Shown one piece after another: positions 3,720 through 14,932 of a DNA stretch of 39,718 nt. The notes beneath the pieces were generated by a model, which saw nothing but the letters and a program-made list of their open reading frames with translations, was not told the DNA's origin and ran no database searches. Position 1 is the first letter of the stretch; each line of letters opens with the position of its first letter. Source of the stretch: Ruegeria sp. PrR005 (GTDB taxonomy: Bacteria > Pseudomonadota > Alphaproteobacteria > Rhodobacterales > Rhodobacteraceae); assembly GCF_010500245.1 (NCBI RefSeq), contig NZ_JAAGOX010000019.1, positions 1 through 39,718 on the forward strand, written 5' to 3'. The translations under genes and the position numbers were made by a program.

Positions 3720-3965
3720 TCCACGGCGCTAGGCGGGTCTCGATACCAAAAGCCAAGCGATCAAGCGAACCCCGCCTGCCCGTGACCCCCGCCCCACCGG
3801 GGGGAACCGCCAGTAGCCGATATATCTATCCCGGCTGTCGGATTTTTTCGGTGAAAATATTTCCGTCCCCGTTCCGGGGTGCGGCCTTGGGGAACCGATC
3901 TGGTGCAGTTTTCTGCCCCGAAGGCATTCAACGCTGTTTACCGAGCGAACCCCGGTGATAAACCT

Positions 3966-6854
3966 ATGGGAGAACTCGTGGGTGAGCAGATGCAGGCAGC
4001 GGACTTCATTAAGAAATGGCAGGCGGTCGAACTCAAGGAACGCAGCGCCTCGCAAGCACACTTCCTTGACCTCTGCACGCTGCTGGGTATCGAAGACCCG
4101 GTGACAGCCGACCCCAAGGGCGACTGGTTCACCTTCGAGCGTGGCGCGTCCAAGACCTCTGGCGGCGAAGGCTGGGCCGACGTCTGGCGCAAGGGCTGCT
4201 TTGCCTGGGAGTACAAGGGCAAGAAGAAGGACCTCGACAAGGCCTTCGACCAGCTTCTTCAATACAGCATTGCGCTGGAGAACCCGCCGCTTCTGATCGT
4301 GTCCGACATGGCCCGCTTCCGGGTTCACACTAACTGGACCAACACGGTGCAGCAGGTTCATGCGTTCGAGTTGCAGGACCTGCTGGACGCCAAGACGCGC
4401 GACCTCCTGCGCAACTGCTTTCTCGACCCCGAACGCCTGCGCCCCGCCAAGACCCGTCAGGCCTTGACCGAAGAGGCTGCACAGAAGTTCGCCTCGCTCG
4501 CCCAGCGCCTCAGGGACCGCAAGCACGACCCCGCCACGGTGGCCCATTTCGTGAACCGTCTGGTGTTCTGCATGTTCGCCGAGGATGTGGACCTGCTGCC
4601 CAACAAGATGTTCCAGAAGATGCTGGAGCTGTGCCAGAAGGAACCGACCGAGTTCCAGCCCTTCGCCAAGGACCTGTTCGCCGCGATGCAATCCGGGGGT
4701 CGCGTCGGGTTCGAGAAGGTGGAGCGGTTCAACGGTGGTCTCTTTGACGACGACACCGCCCTGCCGCTGGAAAAGGACGATCTGGCTGACCTGCTGACCG
4801 CCGCCAAGCTCGACTGGTCCGAAATCGACCCGTCCATTCTGGGCACGCTGTTCGAACGTGGTCTCGACCCCGACAAAAGGTCGCAACTCGGTGCACACTA
4901 CACCGACCGCGACAAGATCATGCAGATCGTGAACCCGGTGATCGTCGAGCCGCTGCTGGCGGAATGGGCCGAGATCAAAGCCGGTATCGAAGAGGCTCTC
5001 AGCAAGGCGCAGAGCGCCAAGTCGCGGTCGGCCCAGACCAAGGCCGAGAAGGAGGCCGAACGCCTGCATGCGGAGTTTCTGGAGCGCTTGCGAGGTTTTC
5101 GCGTGCTCGACCCTGCCTGCGGGTCGGGGAACTTCCTGTACCTGTCTCTCTTGGCGCTAAAGGACATAGAACACCGCACCAACCTGGAGGCCGAGGCGCT
5201 GGGCCTGCAGAAGCAGTTTCCGACCATCGGGCCGGAATGCGTCAAGGGTATCGAGTTGAACCCCTACGCCGCCGAACTGGCCCGCGTATCAGTCTGGGTC
5301 GGGGAAATCCAGTGGATGCGCCGCAACGGCTTTGACGCTGCCCGTAACCCCATACTGCGCCCCTTGGGCACCATCGAGAACCGGGACGCCGTGCTGGCCC
5401 CCGATGGCACCAAGGCCAACTGGCCGGACGCGGATGTGGTCGTGGGCAACCCGCCCTTCCTTGGGAACAAGCGCATGATCTCGGCACTGGGAGAGGACTA
5501 TGCGACCAACCTGCGCAAAGCTTGGAAGGGCGTTCCCGGTGGCGTGGACCTCGTGGCCTACTGGTTCGCCAAGGCTTGGGAAATGATGTGTGAAGGCCGT
5601 CTGACGCGCGCAGGGCTTGTCTCCACTAATTCCATCCGTAGTGGGGTAAATCGCGAGGTGCTGAAACCCGTCGTGGAGACGGGGCGCATTTTTGATGCGT
5701 GGTCTGACGAGGAGTGGACAGTAGAAGGAGCCGCAGTGCGAGTGTCGATGGTCTGTTTCGACCGAATGCATGGGCAGCCGTCACGATTGGACGGGATGGC
5801 TGTCCCAAAGATATTCTCTGACTTGGCACATGCGCGCGGCGGCAGTGACCTCGCTTCTGTATCCAAGCTAGCGGAGAACAGGGCTGTCGCCTTCCAAGGG
5901 ACCATCAAGGTGGGTCCCTTCGATCTAAGTCGTAAAGACGCCCAAATGTTAATAGAATTGCCGTCCAACGCCAACGGTCGGTTGAACTCGGAAGTGGTTG
6001 TCCCATGGGCGAATGGCATCGACGTTGTTCGCCGCCCGCAGGACAAGTGGATTATCGACTTCGGGGCAGTCATGTCGCAGAAGGATGCGTGCTTCTTTGA
6101 GAAGCCTTACGAGTGGGTTATGGAGAAGGTCAAGCCACAACGGGACCAAGTAAGGCGGCAAAACCATCGGGAAAATTGGTGGTTGCATGGCGAGGCACGA
6201 CCCGGCATGCGAAAGGCTCTTGATGGGTTGGCAAGGTTCATTGCCACTCCTGAAACATCCAAGTACCGGCTATTTGTTTGGCTTCCTCACACAACCCTTC
6301 CGGGCCACAAGCTCTACGCAATTGCGCGGAGTGACGACACGGCATTCGGCGTTCTATCGTCGACCTTCCACGAATTGTGGTCCGTGAGCCTTGGTAGTAA
6401 GCACGGTGCAGGAAACGACCATCGCTACACCACGTCTACCACCTTCGAGACCTTCCCTTTCCCGCAAGGTCTGACACCAAACATGTCGGCCGCCGACTAC
6501 GCCAACGACCCCCGCGCTAAGAAGATCGCCGAAGCAGCCGCAGAGTTAAACCGCCTGCGCGAAAACTGGCTGAACCCGCCCGACCTCGTTACCCGTGTCC
6601 CCGAGATGGTCGAAGGTTACCCCGACCGCTTGTTGCCTAAGGACGACAAAGCGGAGAAGGAACTGAGGAAGCGCACCCTGACCAACCTCTACAACGCCCG
6701 CCCCGCATGGCTCGACCATGCTCACAAGCGGCTCGACGAGGCGGTGGCCGAAGCCTATGGCTGGGGCGACGACTGGCGCGCGGGCAAGCTGACCGACGAC
6801 GAAATCCTGGCCCGGTTGTTCCACCTCAATCAGGAGCGGGCCGTAAAGCAGTAG
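3966..6854 (+). CDS. MmeI-like single-chain restriction endonuclease/DNA methyltransferase (type IIL)
   Basis: About 962 residues, in the size range of MmeI-type enzymes, which modify and cleave DNA with one polypeptide. The N-terminal region has the family pattern (FIKKW...ELKERSASQAHF...LC.LLG) and a PD-(D/E)xK-like nuclease motif: Asp in GWADVW and EYK nine residues later (about D72, E82, K84). A helical spacer leads to the methyltransferase domain, with motif I LDPACGSGNFL (near residue 382) and motif IV NPPF (near 495). The last ~400 residues should include the target-recognition domain. The start is uncertain: ATG 3966 puts the nuclease residues close to the positions I recall for MmeI, but GTG 3978 follows a GGGAG ribosome-binding site and ATG 3990 is also possible. 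The gene converges on the integrase with 5 bp between the stops. Confidence 0.85.
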   Translation: MGELVGEQMQAADFIKKWQAVELKERSASQAHFLDLCTLLGIEDPVTADPKGDWFTFERGASKTSGGEGWADVWRKGCFAWEYKGKKKDLDKAFDQLLQYSIALENPPLLIVSDMARFRVHTNWTNTVQQVHAFELQDLLDAKTRDLLRNCFLDPERLRPAKTRQALTEEAAQKFASLAQRLRDRKHDPATVAHFVNRLVFCMFAEDVDLLPNKMFQKMLELCQKEPTEFQPFAKDLFAAMQSGGRVGFEKVERFNGGLFDDDTALPLEKDDLADLLTAAKLDWSEIDPSILGTLFERGLDPDKRSQLGAHYTDRDKIMQIVNPVIVEPLLAEWAEIKAGIEEALSKAQSAKSRSAQTKAEKEAERLHAEFLERLRGFRVLDPACGSGNFLYLSLLALKDIEHRTNLEAEALGLQKQFPTIGPECVKGIELNPYAAELARVSVWVGEIQWMRRNGFDAARNPILRPLGTIENRDAVLAPDGTKANWPDADVVVGNPPFLGNKRMISALGEDYATNLRKAWKGVPGGVDLVAYWFAKAWEMMCEGRLTRAGLVSTNSIRSGVNREVLKPVVETGRIFDAWSDEEWTVEGAAVRVSMVCFDRMHGQPSRLDGMAVPKIFSDLAHARGGSDLASVSKLAENRAVAFQGTIKVGPFDLSRKDAQMLIELPSNANGRLNSEVVVPWANGIDVVRRPQDKWIIDFGAVMSQKDACFFEKPYEWVMEKVKPQRDQVRRQNHRENWWLHGEARPGMRKALDGLARFIATPETSKYRLFVWLPHTTLPGHKLYAIARSDDTAFGVLSSTFHELWSVSLGSKHGAGNDHRYTTSTTFETFPFPQGLTPNMSAADYANDPRAKKIAEAAAELNRLRENWLNPPDLVTRVPEMVEGYPDRLLPKDDKAEKELRKRTLTNLYNARPAWLDHAHKRLDEAVAEAYGWGDDWRAGKLTDDEILARLFHLNQERAVKQ

Positions 6855-6859
6855 GGCGC

Positions 6860-8215
6860 TCAGGGGGCCAGAGCAATCGCCGCCTTCATCGCGTCGGTCG
6901 CCGCCTTCAACCGCGCCTCGCCGCCGCCATAGACCCGGTCGCCTACACCGCCGAGGGAATGCCCGAGAATGCGATGTTCGTCGCGTTCCGGCACCCCTGC
7001 GGAAACCAGCAGGTCCTTCATGTTGTGCCGCAGGGAGTAGACGACGTGGCGCTTGTTCTTGGTGATCTTGCGCAGGTGCTTCATGAGCGACTGTGAGACC
7101 GCGTCAGGGCCGCCCTCATAGGCGTAGCGGGGGAACAGCATCTTCTCGCCCTTGGCGAGCCACAGGGCGTCCTTGGCGGCCACCAGCGCGTCTCCGACAA
7201 GGGGCACCGCCCGGATGGACACCTTGGTTTTCACCCGCCGTTCCTCGTGCCAGCGCACCCAGATATGCGGGTTCGGGGCATCAACATGAACGTCTTCCAC
7301 CCTGAGGCCGACGATTTCGGCCCCACGGCAGCCGGTCCCCTCAAGCAGCCGCCAGATCAGCCCCAGCACGGGTTCACGCAGGTTGCCCCGAATGCGTTTG
7401 CGCATCTCCAGAATGACCTCCTTGGGCAGCGGGTCGCGCCGCTCCCATTCGTTGTCGGGCGGAATGTCATTCTTGGGCAGGTCCAGACCATCGAAGGGGT
7501 TGTGCGCCTTGCCTTTCAGGTCGAACTCGACAATGGCCAGCGAAACCATCGCCCGTACCATGTCCAGTTCACGCCGTACCGAGAGCGGAGACAGGAGGCT
7601 GCCGTCCGACTTCCTCTGCGCCAACATGAAGTCCCTGAGCTTTCTGCCGTGTTCCCGCTTGAACTCGACCAACGGTAGCGTGTGCAGCGGCCCAAGCGCC
7701 TCCTCAACCCTGCGGCAAACCCGATCAAGCCTGTTCTTCTGATTTCGCCCGGTCGCACCACCCATGCGCTCCTTACGGTACATCTCCTTGGCATCCAGCA
7801 TGGTCACCGGCGGGGCCTCTGCGTCCGGCTGCATGACTGCCTTGACCAAGACAGGGTCAGCGCCTCGCTTGTGGAGGTCCTCGGCCAAGATCGTTTGCGC
7901 TTCATCCTCGTCATGCACGCCACTGATGGCGGCCTTCATGGCCTCGGCTTCCTTGACCGCCTCCCGCCAGTGCTCAAGCGGCGACAGCGTTCCCTGTCCT
8001 GCCGCCTTGCGCTTGGCCTTGGTGACGATCTTGTCGAATTCGGCAAGCAGTGCTTCCTGCTCAACAACCAGAGCGGCCCCGAGGCGGGCCTTCATGGGGA
8101 CCTGAAAGAATTCCTCGCCCAGCACCTGAGCCGCGTCCTTGGGATAACGCCGCCGGAAGCGCTTGCGGCCCCCGGAAAGTTCGTCAACGTACTTGAGCTT
8201 CACCATCGTCACCAT
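6860..8215 (-). CDS. int: Tyrosine recombinase (island integrase)
   Basis: The 451-residue protein should catalyse site-specific integration and excision of the island. The C-terminal catalytic domain shows the box I arginine (GTGCRGAEI), a candidate lysine in the beta-hairpin (RRVKTKVSIR), box II YSLRHNMKD, GHSLGG and the tyrosine in DRVYGG. The first position of the usual HxxR motif is Tyr here, a variation seen in some integrase families. The N-terminal part (residues 1-200) resembles the arm-binding and SAM-like core-binding region. The gene starts 93 bp from the 3' end of tRNA-Leu and reads away from it, the usual arrangement for an element integrated at a tRNA gene. Two nearby in-frame ATGs (8215 and 8206) are possible starts. 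Confidence 0.9.
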   Translation of the reverse strand: MVTMVKLKYVDELSGGRKRFRRRYPKDAAQVLGEEFFQVPMKARLGAALVVEQEALLAEFDKIVTKAKRKAAGQGTLSPLEHWREAVKEAEAMKAAISGVHDEDEAQTILAEDLHKRGADPVLVKAVMQPDAEAPPVTMLDAKEMYRKERMGGATGRNQKNRLDRVCRRVEEALGPLHTLPLVEFKREHGRKLRDFMLAQRKSDGSLLSPLSVRRELDMVRAMVSLAIVEFDLKGKAHNPFDGLDLPKNDIPPDNEWERRDPLPKEVILEMRKRIRGNLREPVLGLIWRLLEGTGCRGAEIVGLRVEDVHVDAPNPHIWVRWHEERRVKTKVSIRAVPLVGDALVAAKDALWLAKGEKMLFPRYAYEGGPDAVSQSLMKHLRKITKNKRHVVYSLRHNMKDLLVSAGVPERDEHRILGHSLGGVGDRVYGGGEARLKAATDAMKAAIALAP

Positions 8216-8307
8216 CGCCAGTGTCCCATTTGTGTCCCGAAAAGTGTCTCAGGATGGGCGCTACACGACTGTTATTCTTGAAAAACAAGGACTTCAAGGC
8301 CAAGTTA

Positions 8308-8394
8308 TGGTGCGGTCGAGAAGACTCGAACTTCCACGGGTGTTACCCCACAGCGACCTCAACGCTGCGCGTCTACCAATTCCGCCACGACCGC
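8308..8394 (-). tRNA. tRNA-Leu (anticodon GAG)
   Basis: On the minus strand the 87-nt sequence begins GCGGTCG and ends CGACCGC-A-CCA, giving a 7-bp acceptor stem and an encoded CCA. The anticodon arm is CAGCG-TTGAGGT-CGCTG, so the anticodon is GAG. A long variable arm and a T-loop GTTCGAGTC are visible, as expected for a leucine tRNA. It is the likely attachment target of the neighbouring integrase. Confidence 0.95.
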
Positions 8395-8418
8395 ACTGCC
8401 AGTGACTTGGTAGAGCGG

Positions 8419-8447
8419 CGTATAGACGAGGGTCGCAGGGATGTGAA
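8419..8447 (-). promoter_or_regulatory. Probable sigma-70 promoter of tRNA-Leu
   Basis: On the minus strand TTCACA (-35) and TATACG (-10) are separated by 17 bp, with the -10 ending 24 bp before the mature tRNA 5' end. The call rests on spacing and sequence only. Confidence 0.45.
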
Positions 8448-8536
8448 GAGGCAAAAATCACCTCTGCTTGAATTCTCTTCCCCCGCCCTTACCCTTGGGC
8501 TTAGAACGGGATGCAACAGACAAACAAGGAAGAGAC

Positions 8537-9196
8537 ATGACCGCGACCGATACCCGCCCTGTGCTGCAAATCGACATCGTATCGGATGTGGTCTGCCCCT
8601 GGTGCATCGTTGGCTTTCTGCAACTGGATCAGGCGCTTGCACAGACGGGCGCATTGGTGAAACTGCGGTGGCACCCGTTTGAGCTGAACCCGCAGATGGG
8701 GCCCGAAGGCCAGAACCTGCGCGAACATATCATGGAGAAATACGGCTCCACGCCCGCGCAGAGCGCCGAGGCTCGCGCCCGCCTGACCGAAATCGGGGCC
8801 GATCTGGGCTTCGCTTTCAATTTCACCGACGACAGCAGCATCGTGAACACCTTTGCCGCCCATCAACTGCTCGACTGGGCCGAGGGCCAGGGCCGTCAGC
8901 ATCCGCTGAAACTGGCACTGTTCGCGGCCTATTTCACCCATGGCCGCGATGTATCGGACCCGGCGGTTCTGCTCGATGTGGTGGCGACGGCCGAGCTGGA
9001 CAGGGCGGCCGCCGAGGCGGCGCTGGCCTCGGGCGCCTATCAGGCCGCCGTGCGCGAGAAACAGAAGTTCTGGACACAGCACGGCATTTCCGGTGTCCCC
9101 TCGATGGTGTTTGGCGGCAAGTACCTCCTGACCGGCGCGCAAGGGGCCGACACCTATGCACAGGTGATCCAGCGCTGTCTGGCCGAGGCAGCCTAG
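8537..9196 (+). CDS. DsbA family oxidoreductase (FrnE-like)
   Basis: This 219-residue thioredoxin-fold protein has a CPWC active site in SDVVCPWCIVG near residue 20 and the DsbA/FrnE arrangement with an inserted helical domain. The second half holds the cis-proline region (GISGVPSMVFGGKYLLTGAQ). FrnE proteins are cytoplasmic dithiol oxidoreductases or isomerases. No signal peptide is seen, which agrees with a cytoplasmic place. The ATG at 8537 follows a strong AAGGAAGAG ribosome-binding site, so the longer open frame from 8468 is not used. The gene is transcribed divergently from the tRNA and is followed 40 bp later by lipB. The physiological substrate is unknown. Confidence 0.88.
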   Translation: MTATDTRPVLQIDIVSDVVCPWCIVGFLQLDQALAQTGALVKLRWHPFELNPQMGPEGQNLREHIMEKYGSTPAQSAEARARLTEIGADLGFAFNFTDDSSIVNTFAAHQLLDWAEGQGRQHPLKLALFAAYFTHGRDVSDPAVLLDVVATAELDRAAAEAALASGAYQAAVREKQKFWTQHGISGVPSMVFGGKYLLTGAQGADTYAQVIQRCLAEAA

Positions 9197-9236
9197 CCCC
9201 CTTCCCCTGCCCCGACCCGCACGCTAAGACAATGCC

Positions 9237-9896
9237 ATGGAATGGAAGATCACAGACGGGCTGACCGATTACGATGCGGCGGTGGCCTTTATGGAGGCAC
9301 GCGCCGCCGCCATATCGGCGGGCGAGGCCGACGAGTGCGTCTGGCTGCTGGAACACCCGCCGCTGTACACGGCGGGCACCTCTGCCCGGCGCGAAGACCT
9401 GACCGACCCCGACCGTTTCCCGGTCTACGACAGCAAACGCGGTGGACAGTATACCTATCACGGGCCCGGCCAGCGGGTGGTCTATGTTATGCTCGACGTA
9501 GGCAAACGCGGCCATGACGTGCGCCGCTTTGTCCAGCAGCTCGAGGAATGGGTGATCGCGGCGCTGGCCGAGTTCAACATCCGCGGCGAAATCCGCGAGG
9601 GCCGCGTCGGCGTCTGGGTCCGCCGCGACGACAAGCCCCTGACAGTCACCGGCAAACCGGCCGAGGACAAGATCGCGGCAATCGGCATACGGATCCGCAA
9701 ATGGGTCAGCTTCCACGGCATCTCGATCAACGTGGAACCGGATCTGAGCCATTTCTCGGGCATCGTGCCCTGTGGCATCACCGAATTCGGGGTCACGTCC
9801 CTGGTCGATCTGGGGCTACCGGTCACCATGGCGGATGTCGATGTTGCCCTGCGACACAGTTTCGATCTGGTGTTCGGAGACGATCAGACCGATTGA
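9237..9896 (+). CDS. lipB: Octanoyltransferase LipB
   Basis: LipB moves the octanoyl group from acyl carrier protein to lipoyl domains of 2-oxo acid dehydrogenases and the glycine cleavage H protein, the first step of endogenous lipoate synthesis in the cytoplasm. The 219-residue protein shows the family motifs in order: [21 protein letters not shown], the lysine motif KIAAIGIR and the catalytic cysteine in GIVPCGI. Length is normal. It may be co-transcribed with the preceding FrnE-like gene. The stop lies 3 bp from the stop of the convergent LuxR/hydrolase gene. Confidence 0.97.
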
Positions 9897-9899
9897 CCC

Positions 9900-11666
9900 T
9901 TAGGCTGGCAACTCGTCGAGCGCATCCAGAACAACATCCGGGCGCTCGTAGATCAGGAACTGGCCAACATCCGCTAGCACCCGGAACGTGACATTGGTGC
10001 GGGTCCCGGCAAACTCCTCTGCCACGCCGACGGGCACAACCGGATCCAGCGCGCCATGCAGATGGATCACCGGCTTTGCCTGTTTGGACAGCGGCGACAC
10101 CCAGTCCGAGACCATGACCCGCGCATCGCTGACAAACCCCTCGGTTCCGGCCTGCGCGGCAAAGCGATAACCGGCGTGCATCAGCTCTCCCAGGTTCAGG
10201 CGCGCAACCACGTCACGTTCATGCGTTCCGGGCGGGTACAGGGCATCCATAAAGGTCTGCACCTCTTCGCTATCGATCAGCGAGATGGCCGCCCGAACGA
10301 AAAACGGCAACAGGCTTGGCGTCCAGCGCGCGGTATAACCCATGACTCTCTGTCGCCGGGCCATTCCGCGGAACTGGTCACGGCGCAACAATGGCCCGCT
10401 GCCGGCCACCGCGACCATGCCCCGGACACGCGGATCGCCGCCGGCACAGATCGTGTGGCCCTGAACGACGCCGGCCATGTGCCCCAGGACGGCAGCGCGC
10501 CGGATGTCGAAACGATCCATCAACTCGCCCACATGATCCGACATCGCGCGCAGTGCGGCATGCGGGTCGGCCACCGGCTCCGAGCGCCCATATCCCGGAC
10601 GCACCGGTGCCAGAATACGCAATCCGCGCCGGTGCAACCGGTCCTTGAGATATTGCAACGGCGCCAGGCCATCCATCATGCCATGCAGATAGATTACCGG
10701 CCGGCCCTTGGGATCACCGCACTGATAGAGCTGCATCTTGAGGCCTGTGCGCATCTCCAGCACCTCGTCGTTCAGATCGACGGCACCGGGATGCCCGTTG
10801 GTCCGCAGCTGATTCCCCCGCTCGATCAGAAAAGCCACCAGCCGGATCAGGTCTGCCTGCCCGGGGGCGCCGGTCTTGGCCAGAACCGATTTCGCCTGAT
10901 TTCGAACCGTGTGCTCGGACCGGTGCGAGCGCTCGGCAATCTCGCGCAGGCTGTGCCCCTCCATAAGGTTGCGCACGATTTCCACTTCGGCCGGGGACAG
11001 GCCAAAGGATGAGACCAGCATCCGTTCGGCGGCGGGTGTCCATTGATAGTCGAGACTTTCGATCATGATCTGCCCCGAACCCTCGTCACAGGGGGCCATG
11101 CGCGCGATCAGGTGCCGGGGCCGCATGTCCGTGCTCAGAACAACGGCCTGAGCCTGATCCGTTCCCTCGCGCGCCGCCTCCAACAGCCCGTCGAGCATCT
11201 GCGCGCTCGGCACAGGCAAATGCGCTCTGAGCGCCCCAAGATCACGTGGATTATCAAGCAATTGCCGCGCCGCCTGTCCAGCGGCCCGGACGCGTCCATC
11301 GACGCCTGTCAGCAACACGAATCCCGGCGCGCCGTTGATGCACCGCTCCAGCTCGGATTGCGGCGCCTTGCGCCCCAGCTGTTCCAGAATCACATGTGCC
11401 CGGCGGAAATGATCCTGCAACTCGGGATCGACCTGCAACTCGGCCGCCAAAGGCTGTTCGCCCGCATTCGAGAAATCACCCATGTCCCGCAACAGATCAG
11501 ACAGGTGGTCGTCCCAGACCGATACCACACGCTCATAGTGATCGGGCCGCAAAACGATCTCGTAGATTGCGGCGATCACTTGCTCTCTGGTCGGAGTCGC
11601 ATGGGTTCCGAAATCGTCGCGAATAGTTAACCTCCCAAACTCGGCATCGGAGACCGATTTTGACAT
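9900..11666 (-). CDS. LuxR-type regulator fused to a degenerate alpha/beta-hydrolase domain
   Basis: Of the 588 residues, about 1-220 form an N-terminal region with a PAS-like segment (APGFVLLTGVDGRVRAAG). Residues 222-281 are a LuxR HTH (LSPAEVEIVRNLMEGHSLREIA...SEHTVRNQ), and about 300-588 an alpha/beta-hydrolase fold (VIYLHGMMDG, RPGYGRSEP). Catalytic positions are altered: the nucleophile elbow reads GHMAG with Met where Ser is expected (about residue 397), and the base position reads VGQFLIYERP with Gln for His (about 569); the acid Asp in HGALDPVVP is kept. The domain is therefore probably a ligand sensor, not an enzyme. ATG 11666 is preferred; an in-frame GTG at 11693 is possible. A near-perfect 18-bp dyad lies about 55 bp upstream, which may allow autoregulation. 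The ligand is unknown. Confidence 0.8.
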   Translation of the reverse strand: MSKSVSDAEFGRLTIRDDFGTHATPTREQVIAAIYEIVLRPDHYERVVSVWDDHLSDLLRDMGDFSNAGEQPLAAELQVDPELQDHFRRAHVILEQLGRKAPQSELERCINGAPGFVLLTGVDGRVRAAGQAARQLLDNPRDLGALRAHLPVPSAQMLDGLLEAAREGTDQAQAVVLSTDMRPRHLIARMAPCDEGSGQIMIESLDYQWTPAAERMLVSSFGLSPAEVEIVRNLMEGHSLREIAERSHRSEHTVRNQAKSVLAKTGAPGQADLIRLVAFLIERGNQLRTNGHPGAVDLNDEVLEMRTGLKMQLYQCGDPKGRPVIYLHGMMDGLAPLQYLKDRLHRRGLRILAPVRPGYGRSEPVADPHAALRAMSDHVGELMDRFDIRRAAVLGHMAGVVQGHTICAGGDPRVRGMVAVAGSGPLLRRDQFRGMARRQRVMGYTARWTPSLLPFFVRAAISLIDSEEVQTFMDALYPPGTHERDVVARLNLGELMHAGYRFAAQAGTEGFVSDARVMVSDWVSPLSKQAKPVIHLHGALDPVVPVGVAEEFAGTRTNVTFRVLADVGQFLIYERPDVVLDALDELPA

Positions 11667-11720
11667 AGTGGCAAATCCGGCCACAGCTTGCACAGCCGCT
11701 GTAACGAACTAATCATGAGA

Positions 11721-11738
11721 ATAACCCAAATGGGTCAT
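11721..11738. promoter_or_regulatory. 18-bp dyad upstream of the LuxR/hydrolase gene
   Basis: The arms ATAACCCA and TGGGTCAT are complementary at 7 of 8 positions around a central AA. The position, 55-72 bp upstream of the gene start, suits an operator. The half-site ATGACCC recurs upstream of the second LuxR gene at 14135-14141 (reverse). Confidence 0.45.
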
Positions 11739-11859
11739 GCGGCAAGCCCGCGGCGCATGCCAGAACTGCACATACCGTTCAGTGAGTGAGTGGTGTTTTC
11801 ATCAAGTCGCGTATGCTTGCCGGTCTTGAAGAGTGGCAGCAGACCATTGTTTCAGATCC

Positions 11860-14119: not shown

Positions 14120-14141
14120 ATGATCCGGAATACAGGGTCAT
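14120..14141. promoter_or_regulatory. Imperfect dyad in the divergent luxR/membrane-protein region
   Basis: ATGATCC and GGGTCAT match as inverted repeats at 6 of 7 positions with an 8-bp spacer. The right arm contains the same half-site (GGGTCAT) as the dyad at 11721-11738 in front of the other LuxR gene. A candidate operator; unproven. Confidence 0.35.
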
Positions 14142-14176
14142 GCGTAACAACTGCGACAATATATGCCGGGACCGGA

Positions 14177-14932
14177 ATGCGAAATATCACAAAGTTTGCG
14201 CTCGATCTGTTGGAAAGCCTTTCCCATATCTTTGACGATGCTGCCCGATGGGACCACACGGTAGAGCGGCTGGGCGCGTTTGGCTTTCGGGCCGTGAACA
14301 TGGGGCAGTTCACGCCAAAGACGGGCATCCTGCACTGGGCGCGCAGCTCGATGACGCCGCAGTGGCTGAAGATCTATGCCGAGAGCGGCTATGCCGATGC
14401 CGACCTGGTCCTGGCGCAGACCGTGCAGGGGCCCGACAGCCTGTACATCGATTCGGGCCGGCGCCTGTTGCAGTCCAACTCGGCCACGGCCGCGGGCCTA
14501 TATTCCGGGCTGGTCGAGCACGGCTATCAGCATGTGTTCAGCCTAGTGGTCCCCTGCCCCGGCAATACCGCGATGCTGGTGGCCCTGTTCACCGACCACC
14601 CCGAGGCCGAAGCCTGGATGACCGAACAGGAAAGCGGCATGCGCATCCTGGCCACCGTCATCGCCACCAACCTCGGCCCCGGGGTCGAAGGCGACCAGAA
14701 CGCGGGCCAGGATCTGGCGCCGATTCTGGGGACAACCGCGCCGCTGTCGCGGCGCGAGCGCGAGGTGCTGCATCTGCTGGCCAACGGTCTGCGCAACGAG
14801 CAGATTTCGGAGACGCTGGGGATCAGCGAAATCACCGTGCGCACGCATCTGAAATCGGCCCGCGACAAGCTGCGCGCGCCGACCCGCGAAGCAGCGCTGG
14901 TGCGGGCGGTAAAAATGGGGCTGCTGAATTAA
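14177..14932 (+). CDS. LuxR family regulator, divergent autoinducer-binding type
   Basis: The 251-residue protein has an autoinducer-binding-like domain (about 10-165) and a C-terminal LuxR HTH (LSRREREVLHLLANGLRNEQISETLGISEITVRTH, about 188-245). In the ligand domain, WLKIYAESGYADADL keeps the Trp, Tyr and Asp of the classical acyl-homoserine-lactone pocket, but the Pro after the Asp is absent and the later Trp motif reads as PDSLYID. It may therefore bind a non-standard ligand. No luxI synthase is in the window, so locally it is a LuxR solo. ATG 14177 is chosen because the domain starts here; an in-frame ATG at 14120 lacks a ribosome-binding site and overlaps the dyad. Confidence 0.87.
   Translation: MRNITKFALDLLESLSHIFDDAARWDHTVERLGAFGFRAVNMGQFTPKTGILHWARSSMTPQWLKIYAESGYADADLVLAQTVQGPDSLYIDSGRRLLQSNSATAAGLYSGLVEHGYQHVFSLVVPCPGNTAMLVALFTDHPEAEAWMTEQESGMRILATVIATNLGPGVEGDQNAGQDLAPILGTTAPLSRREREVLHLLANGLRNEQISETLGISEITVRTHLKSARDKLRAPTREAALVRAVKMGLLN

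Follow-up and report, generated by a model that had tools for sequence, protein, structure and literature searches.

What does an alpha/beta-hydrolase fold do once its catalytic residues have been replaced and it has been joined to a DNA-binding domain? The question is raised by a reverse-strand gene in the window, the whole stretch of 39,718 nucleotides analysed here (contig NZ_JAAGOX010000019.1 of Ruegeria sp. PrR005), which a preliminary description had read as a LuxR-type regulator fused to a catalytically dead hydrolase. The gene, its encoded parts and its convergent neighbour are as follows.

9900-11693, reverse strand: coding sequence of the LuxR/pseudo-hydrolase regulator, 597 residues from GTG
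11055-11588, reverse strand: N-terminal helical and PAS-like region, residues 36-213 (AlphaFold secondary structure, alignment of relatives)
10839-11000, reverse strand: GerE (LuxR/NarL-class) helix-turn-helix, residues 232-285 (Pfam PF00196)
10896-10922, reverse strand: recognition helix RSEHTVRNQ, residues 258-266 (sequence reading)
9903-10778, reverse strand: alpha/beta-hydrolase fold with helical cap, residues 306-597 (Pfam, AlphaFold, Foldseek)
10476-10478, reverse strand: Met406 in place of the Ser nucleophile, GHMAG 404-408 (alignment to 9wlv)
10044-10046, reverse strand: Asp550, the acid, kept (alignment to 9wlv)
9960-9962, reverse strand: Gln578 in place of the His base, VGQFL 576-580 (alignment to 9wlv)
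9237-9896, forward strand: lipB-like lipoyl/octanoyl transferase, convergent, marking the syntenic locus (Pfam LplA-B_cat, synteny)

A GerE-type regulator with a hydrolase fold lacking nucleophile and base

Pfam scanning of the 597-residue protein revealed GerE (PF00196) at residues 232-285 with 26.5 bits against a cut-off of 23.5, as well as Abhydrolase_1 at 332-446 and Abhydrolase_6 at 333-591, both above their cut-offs, so that the proposed fusion of a LuxR-type regulator to a hydrolase fold holds. The likeness to NarL, LuxR and FixJ lies in this helix-turn-helix; unlike NarL and LuxR, the protein has neither a receiver domain nor an autoinducer-binding domain (Autoind_bind, PF03472) at E 0.001, i.e. 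neither the layout of a NarL-proper response regulator nor the domain of an acyl-homoserine lactone receptor, and its helix-turn-helix lies mid-chain, followed by the hydrolase fold. An AlphaFold model built on 76 sequences (mean pLDDT 89.1, pTM 0.80) places N-terminal helices first, then a mixed alpha/beta, PAS-like segment (residues 126-213), the helix-turn-helix and a complete hydrolase fold whose helical cap is predicted with high confidence. On the basis that model confidence is below 50 over residues 1-25 counted from the GTG (11691-11693), and that the start context ATGTC(A/G)AAA is common to the window gene and its closest relative (L005), the true start is probably the ATG at 11664-11666, giving 588 residues.

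The Pfam scan returned no PAS domain in the window protein. Hydrolase-free LuxR-class proteins, some 300-430 residues long, align with its N-terminal part and helix-turn-helix, and one of the three such relatives tested carries PAS_4 and PAS_8 matches; from these relatives and the predicted secondary structure we infer a PAS-like identity for the N-terminal part.

Foldseek superposed the hydrolase part on 9wlv, a Microlunatus hydrolase and the nearest solved structure, with E 5.9e-16 and a TM of 0.85 on target length. Alignments to 9wlv pair Met406 with the Ser of its GWSGG motif, Asp550 with an Asp and Gln578 with the His of EGHL. The family shares with 9wlv and with aryl esterases the core fold, the helical cap, the HG loop and the acid Asp, the last two both being present in the window protein, and differs from them by a Met or Leu at the nucleophile, the Gln at the base and the fusion to a DNA-binding domain. 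The model and Foldseek thus bear out an intact, capped hydrolase fold, and the earlier claim that Met replaces Ser and Gln replaces His, with fold and acid retained, agrees with Pfam, the model and the alignment to 9wlv: the fold is there, and in place of a nucleophile (Ser, Asp or Cys), an acid and a His stand Met406, Asp550 and Gln578. Met, Leu, Phe and Ala cannot serve as nucleophile, and Gln cannot be the general base of a hydrolase mechanism. Judged from these residues, catalysis has been lost at the hydrolase site while the fold stays. The general idea of the Met as an oxidation sensor was rejected, Leu standing for Met in many members.

Conservation of the replaced residues

Matches at E 1e-20 or better were found in 90 of 394 genomes of the family. 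Within the genus, four of five genomes carry the gene, the window's own included, and open, near full-length orthologues (90%, 73% and 67% identical) occur in three of the four others. In genus- and family-wide searches that were blind to the site residues, Gln occupies the base position in 76 of 100 members, and Ser together with His occurs in none of the 100. A pattern scan of named genomes yielded 79 loci with 81 open reading frames, of which 51 read M-D-Q, 11 L-D-Q and 7 R-D-A, the remainder being other combinations or fragments, and none has a Ser nucleophile; the patterns avoid nucleophile and base but derive from the window's clade, so that this count samples that clade. Alignment A1 was set aside as evidence of conservation, its rows having been chosen for Met or Leu plus Gln, and the HGM in alignment A2 is partly fixed by the scan pattern.

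All searches together gave 169 distinct fused proteins (a set that omits four stand-alone hydrolases and identical rows in addition to the sequences excluded from the tree), with Met/Gln in 57, Gly/Gln in 43, Leu/Gln in 15, Asp/His in seven and Ser/His in one. Of the 169, 127 carry Gln as the base residue and 155 keep Asp as the acid. On the suggested check of whether Met and Gln are conserved, Gln thus holds the base in most members, and the nucleophile position is Met in many and Leu, Gly or Arg in others.

In a tree of 192 rows, 110 rows including the window form one clade (SH-aLRT 95), in which 91 carry Gln and 85 of these 91 Met or Leu. The tree contains near-duplicates from two collections (173 of the 192 rows differ) and omits L157, L185, L141b, L192, the second frame of L189, L103, L201, L206 and every row with fewer than 200 residues in the hydrolase region. 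By sequence comparison, the replacement of nucleophile and base is old and conserved within the window's clade. An intact triad, which together with measured hydrolase activity had been named as the finding that would overturn the earlier reading, does exist in one distant fusion (L197, with Ser-Asp-His), and seven further fusions have Asp/His, but all lie outside this clade. L197 has GerE and Abhydrolase matches in Pfam and groups with stand-alone Ser-Asp-His hydrolases, a join that the tree tool flags as one of long branches. The Asp/His members (L058, L064, L085, L092 and L193-L195) resemble dehalogenases and epoxide hydrolases in their Asp nucleophile and His base, some of them also being without the acid Asp, and could be active regulator-enzymes.

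The window's regulator might likewise still be an enzyme that degrades or converts its signal by an unusual mechanism at the hydrolase site. The acid and HG loop kept in the window protein would suit such activity, as would the one Ser-Asp-His and seven Asp/His members, from which active fusions may exist; yet Met, Leu, Phe or Ala offers no nucleophile and Gln no general base, and a clade with Arg at the nucleophile position (see below) has changed both residues again. We consider retained catalysis very unlikely.

Other arrangements were observed within the family. Locus L171 (about 5749-9461) carries fused regulator/hydrolase frames in tandem, one M-D-Q and one Q-D-H, and L189 has two frames in tandem, which hints at duplication and divergence. 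Most members of the Gly/Gln clade have lost the HG loop. Gly/Gln members L105, L243, L246, L252 and L254 often lie beside recN-like, bamD-like and lpxC-like genes, and L242, L245, L249, L251 and L253 beside polyphosphate-kinase-2-like and glutathione-transferase-like genes (all named by eye).

A conserved 7-2-7 palindrome upstream of the regulator gene

Two conserved elements lie upstream of the gene.

11722-11737, reverse strand: putative 7-2-7 operator TGACCCATTTGGGTTA, given as the reverse complement of the forward strand (comparative sequence)
11782-11795, reverse strand: second conserved block CACCACTCACTCAC, then TGAACGG (comparison of orthologue upstreams)

The preliminary description had pointed to a dyad at 11721-11738. 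This element, ATAACCCAAATGGGTCAT, has two 8-base arms, a gap of 2 and one mismatch. Homologues with diverged surrounding DNA keep it at 0-2 mismatches, compared to an average of about 5 (lowest 2) for the best match in shuffled upstreams, which argues that the dyad is not there by chance; it is real and belongs to a series of conserved 7-2-7 operators across the family. A de novo palindromic search of 56 deduplicated upstreams outside the lipB locus set returned TACCCCATATGGGGTA with a log-likelihood of 330.8, versus 60.3, 68.0 and 65.4 in three mononucleotide shuffles. The family palindrome is TACCCCAWWTGGGGTA and the version of the window's lineage is TGACCCAWWTGGGTCA, which most members with an (R/K)SEHT(V/I)RNQ helix carry upstream at 0-2 mismatches, the exceptions being L017, L018/L122 and L109. 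From its form and conservation, this motif would be a GerE-type palindromic operator.

A subsequent scan used position weights set by hand after the de novo search and is therefore a fitted one whose controls are the test. With only members having Gln and M, L, F, A, K or I scanned as positives, it found a site in 55 of 72 distinct upstreams versus 0, 0, 1, 0 and 0 of 72 in five shuffles, and in none of 42 Gly/Gln and none of 17 Arg-clade upstreams. The 17 of 72 without a site include L018 (just under threshold), L109 and L022 (RNQ helices), as well as L136, L165 and L179, all of which have autotransporter neighbours. Both de novo search and scan cover the set without L185, L151, L158, short upstreams, L080, L082, L090 and L091, and the scan also leaves aside L157, L063 and L098; L063, L098, L080, L082, L090 and L091 group with the Gly/Gln part of the tree. 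A separate de novo search of the Gly/Gln clade reached a log-likelihood of 92.1 versus 51.7-54.4 in shuffles with matches at scattered positions, and we claim no operator for this clade.

The outer bases of the site vary with the recognition helix. At half-site bases 2-4, RNQ helices are accompanied by GAC in 24 of 38 half-sites, RTQ helices by ACC or ACA in 43 of 50 and RAQ helices by CAC or AAC in 12 of 14, a covariation that rests on few independent changes since helix types follow clades. The engineered NarL 7-2-7 site given in PMC4549865 is TACCCCTAAAGGGGTA; the family motif matches it everywhere but in the four central bases.

Exact matches to TGACCCANNTGGGTYA occur only upstream of the regulator gene in all four gene-bearing genus genomes, and once in the fifth (G001), at a relic of the gene. 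With at most one mismatch, the pattern yields 4-6 matches per strand and genome versus 0-1 for a backward control pattern. In the window's own genome (G000) these correspond to six distinct places, the exact one being at the regulator gene. The five near-sites comprise one within a frame that by eye resembles nitric-oxide reductase, two within further open frames, one within a frame bordering a transporter-like locus and one some 180 bases ahead of an exported-looking frame; this fifth site, which the closest relative also has between similar flanks, may be coding on the other strand. Most of the near-sites fall in open frames of unrelated genes. We claim no wider regulon in this genome. The genome's one match to a TPS exoprotein (C6) has a best site with 4 mismatches, the same as shuffles.

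The second block, CACCACTCACTCAC(T/A)GAACGG (window 11775-11801), lies in the interval from the efflux gene to the operator. Close orthologues share it in their upstream regions, G001 still has it, and L011 has its first part; it is perhaps the site of another regulator.

The Arg clade and gene loss

Eighteen rows with Arg at the nucleophile position form one branch (support 100) inside the window's clade, beside two Leu/Gln rows. Their other position is Ala, Gly, Asp, Ser or Thr, so both site residues have changed. All 18 occupy the window gene's locus, where they converge with lipB, and so seem to be syntenic orthologues whose two site residues underwent a second change. Their helix-turn-helix scores 48.8 bits in L021, 37.4 in L026 and at most 16.6 in the remaining rows. 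In a model of the Leisingera member L175 (mean pLDDT 78.6) the hydrolase fold persists, while a short strand replaces the turn helix and the recognition helix is shorter.

These orthologues bear on whether the pseudo-hydrolase is instead a structural or partner-binding module, serving dimerisation or protein contact, with the PAS-like N-terminal part as the sensor. The Arg clade keeps the hydrolase fold with a mostly degenerate helix-turn-helix, which fits a protein-binding role, and both the PAS-like secondary structure and the existence of PAS-like plus helix-turn-helix relatives without a hydrolase lean the same way. For dimerisation alone there would be no obvious need to keep Asp and Gln in 155 and 127 of 169 members, however, and the confidently predicted cap also speaks against it. 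We rate such a module as rather unlikely and retain the pseudo-hydrolase as the more probable sensor.

In G001 the gene is gone, leaving a 43-residue C-terminal relic and an exact operator between lipB and the efflux gene. The relic suggests recent loss, and the absence of the gene indicates that it is dispensable there. G203 carries a broken copy. Although this loss and this break would be expected of a decaying gene whose triad residues were simply lost, open near full-length orthologues persist in three of the four other genus genomes and the same replacement residues are kept across families of Alphaproteobacteria, which makes decay barely credible.

As G001 keeps the exact site without the gene, the site alone is no proof of its partner, and the operator could serve another NarL/FixJ-type regulator that controls this gene while the encoded protein does not act on its own promoter. 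NarL indeed binds almost the same 7-2-7 sequence. On the other hand, the outer site bases change with the protein's own recognition helix, the site is missing upstream of the Arg clade, where the helix-turn-helix is weak or undetectable, and the G001 relic suggests that the gene was lost recently. A foreign regulator is accordingly improbable in our judgement, and binding by the protein itself is the reading we carry forward.

Genes adjoining the regulator

At 22 of 54 non-lipB loci the adjoining gene encodes a large secreted protein, a secretion partner or IalB. TPS, ShlB or IalB neighbours occur at 13 (L138, L143, L149, L150, L152, L154, L155, L161, L162, L169, L173, L183 and L185; L154 has IalB alone), RTX neighbours at five (L131, L145, L148, L153 and L156) and autotransporters at four (L136, L158, L165 and L179). 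Pfam matches above cut-off support TPS in L152 (Maritimibacter alkaliphilus HTCC2654) and L162, ShlB in L143 and L185, IalB in L143, L150, L154 and L155, RTX in all five and autotransporter in all four; the remaining labels were assigned by similarity to Pfam-verified members, the RTX label by motif count, with L148 found by Pfam only. As to TPS, L138, L149 and L150 have no Pfam TPS domain, L169 and L173 are below cut-off and L161 carries its label by similarity.

None of 25 lipB loci has an adjoining exoprotein-type gene, the window's own lineage included; at L108, L110 and L112 an RTX-motif frame lies 2.0-3.8 kb downstream, not adjacent. Among 20 other-clade loci (15 Gly/Gln, four Asp/His and one Ser/His; L244 not counted), none has such a gene within three genes as judged by motif and similarity labels rather than Pfam. 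Fisher tests gave p = 7e-5 (22/54 versus 0/25 lipB loci) and 4e-4 (22/54 versus 0/19 other-clade loci), values that are rough since related loci are not independent. At 12 of the 14 loci examined for its position (L131, L143, L145, L148, L150, L152, L153, L155, L156, L162, L169 and L183; not L138 and L173), the 7-2-7 site is flanked by the divergent neighbour's open frame on one side and a possible start codon of the regulator on the other.

Elsewhere in the window, a Phage_integrase gene (6860-8215) stands side by side with tRNA-Leu (8308-8394) and an MmeI-type restriction-modification gene (3879-6854), which suggests that a tRNA-inserted island (3879-8394) adjoins the regulator locus. At 14120-14932 lies a gene for a LuxR-type protein whose autoinducer-binding domain narrowly exceeds the Pfam cut-off; as none of the genome's luxI-type matches is on the window's contig, it may be a LuxR solo.

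Discussion

Loss of catalysis, retention of the fold, fusion to a DNA-binding domain and an upstream operator, the combination on which the earlier reading rested, are all conserved across the family. We regard it as fairly probable that the gene encodes an autoregulated one-component LuxR/NarL-type regulator with a pseudo-hydrolase sensor, which in relatives probably controls surface adhesins. On the basis that the palindrome lies upstream of most clade members scanned and tracks the recognition helix, the regulator most likely binds its own promoter at the 7-2-7 site, and it would thereby control its own gene. A small ligand could sit in the cavity that the helical cap covers, where Gln and a hydrophobic residue would line the former catalytic centre, and once bound it would shift DNA binding of a regulator dimer. 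In non-lipB lineages, divergent genes for large surface proteins or secretion partners across the same site would be the probable targets, and the neighbours suggest that the output in relatives includes surface adhesins.

The ester- or lactone-like ligand proposed earlier is unsupported: 18 Arg rows change both residues, the PAS-like part could be the sensor and no ligand evidence was found. Acyl-homoserine lactone signals may be present in the genus, since all five genomes carry 2-4 luxI-type genes each above cut-off; nothing ties these signals to the regulator.

Alpha/beta-hydrolases already act in signalling as D14/DAD2/KAI2 and RsbQ, DAD2 being described as keeping a working triad with hydrolysis linked to signalling, in which it differs from the window protein. 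To our knowledge, none of these has a DNA-binding domain. RcgR of rhizobial plasmids yields a model resembling esterases, and no DNA-interaction domain is predicted in it. The preliminary comparison with plant hormone receptors stands as an analogy to the gibberellin receptor GID1, likewise a hydrolase fold without catalysis used for perception (which in the window protein would be the case by analogy), although GID1, as described in PMC3531792, has lost the His but keeps Ser and Asp. GID1 acts via protein partners, whereas the window protein has its own DNA-binding domain. As to kinship, neither GID1 nor D14 is named among 37 PDB matches or the best 60 of 97.

Each part taken singly is known, be it the GerE regulator, the hydrolase fold or the dead hydrolase that serves as a receptor. 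For all of them joined in a single chain, together with a conserved operator, we found no description in the open-access literature searched, which does not mean that none has been published. In plasmid records of related genes, 23 of the 25 matches listed (58 in total) are labelled alpha/beta (fold) hydrolase, 19 of the 23 from one species and as judged from labels rather than triads, and one of the 25 is labelled LuxR C-terminal-related transcriptional regulator. Under plain hydrolase labels the regulatory nature is easily missed.

The family offers a candidate operator, a series of natural losses in the Arg clade and G001, and candidate surface-adhesion genes linked to the regulator, the adhesion link concerning marine and soil Alphaproteobacteria. 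Tentatively, and as a possibility that we hold to be doubtful, these proteins may be widespread alphaproteobacterial soluble receptors in which the dead cavity binds a diffusible signal and a NarL-type operator switches giant adhesins of three secretion routes; if so, they would do in bacteria what the gibberellin receptor does in plants, but with a direct connection to DNA. Should the cavity indeed bind a signal, LuxR-class regulators would have a new type of sensor domain, and the conversion of a hydrolase into a receptor would have a further, independent example.
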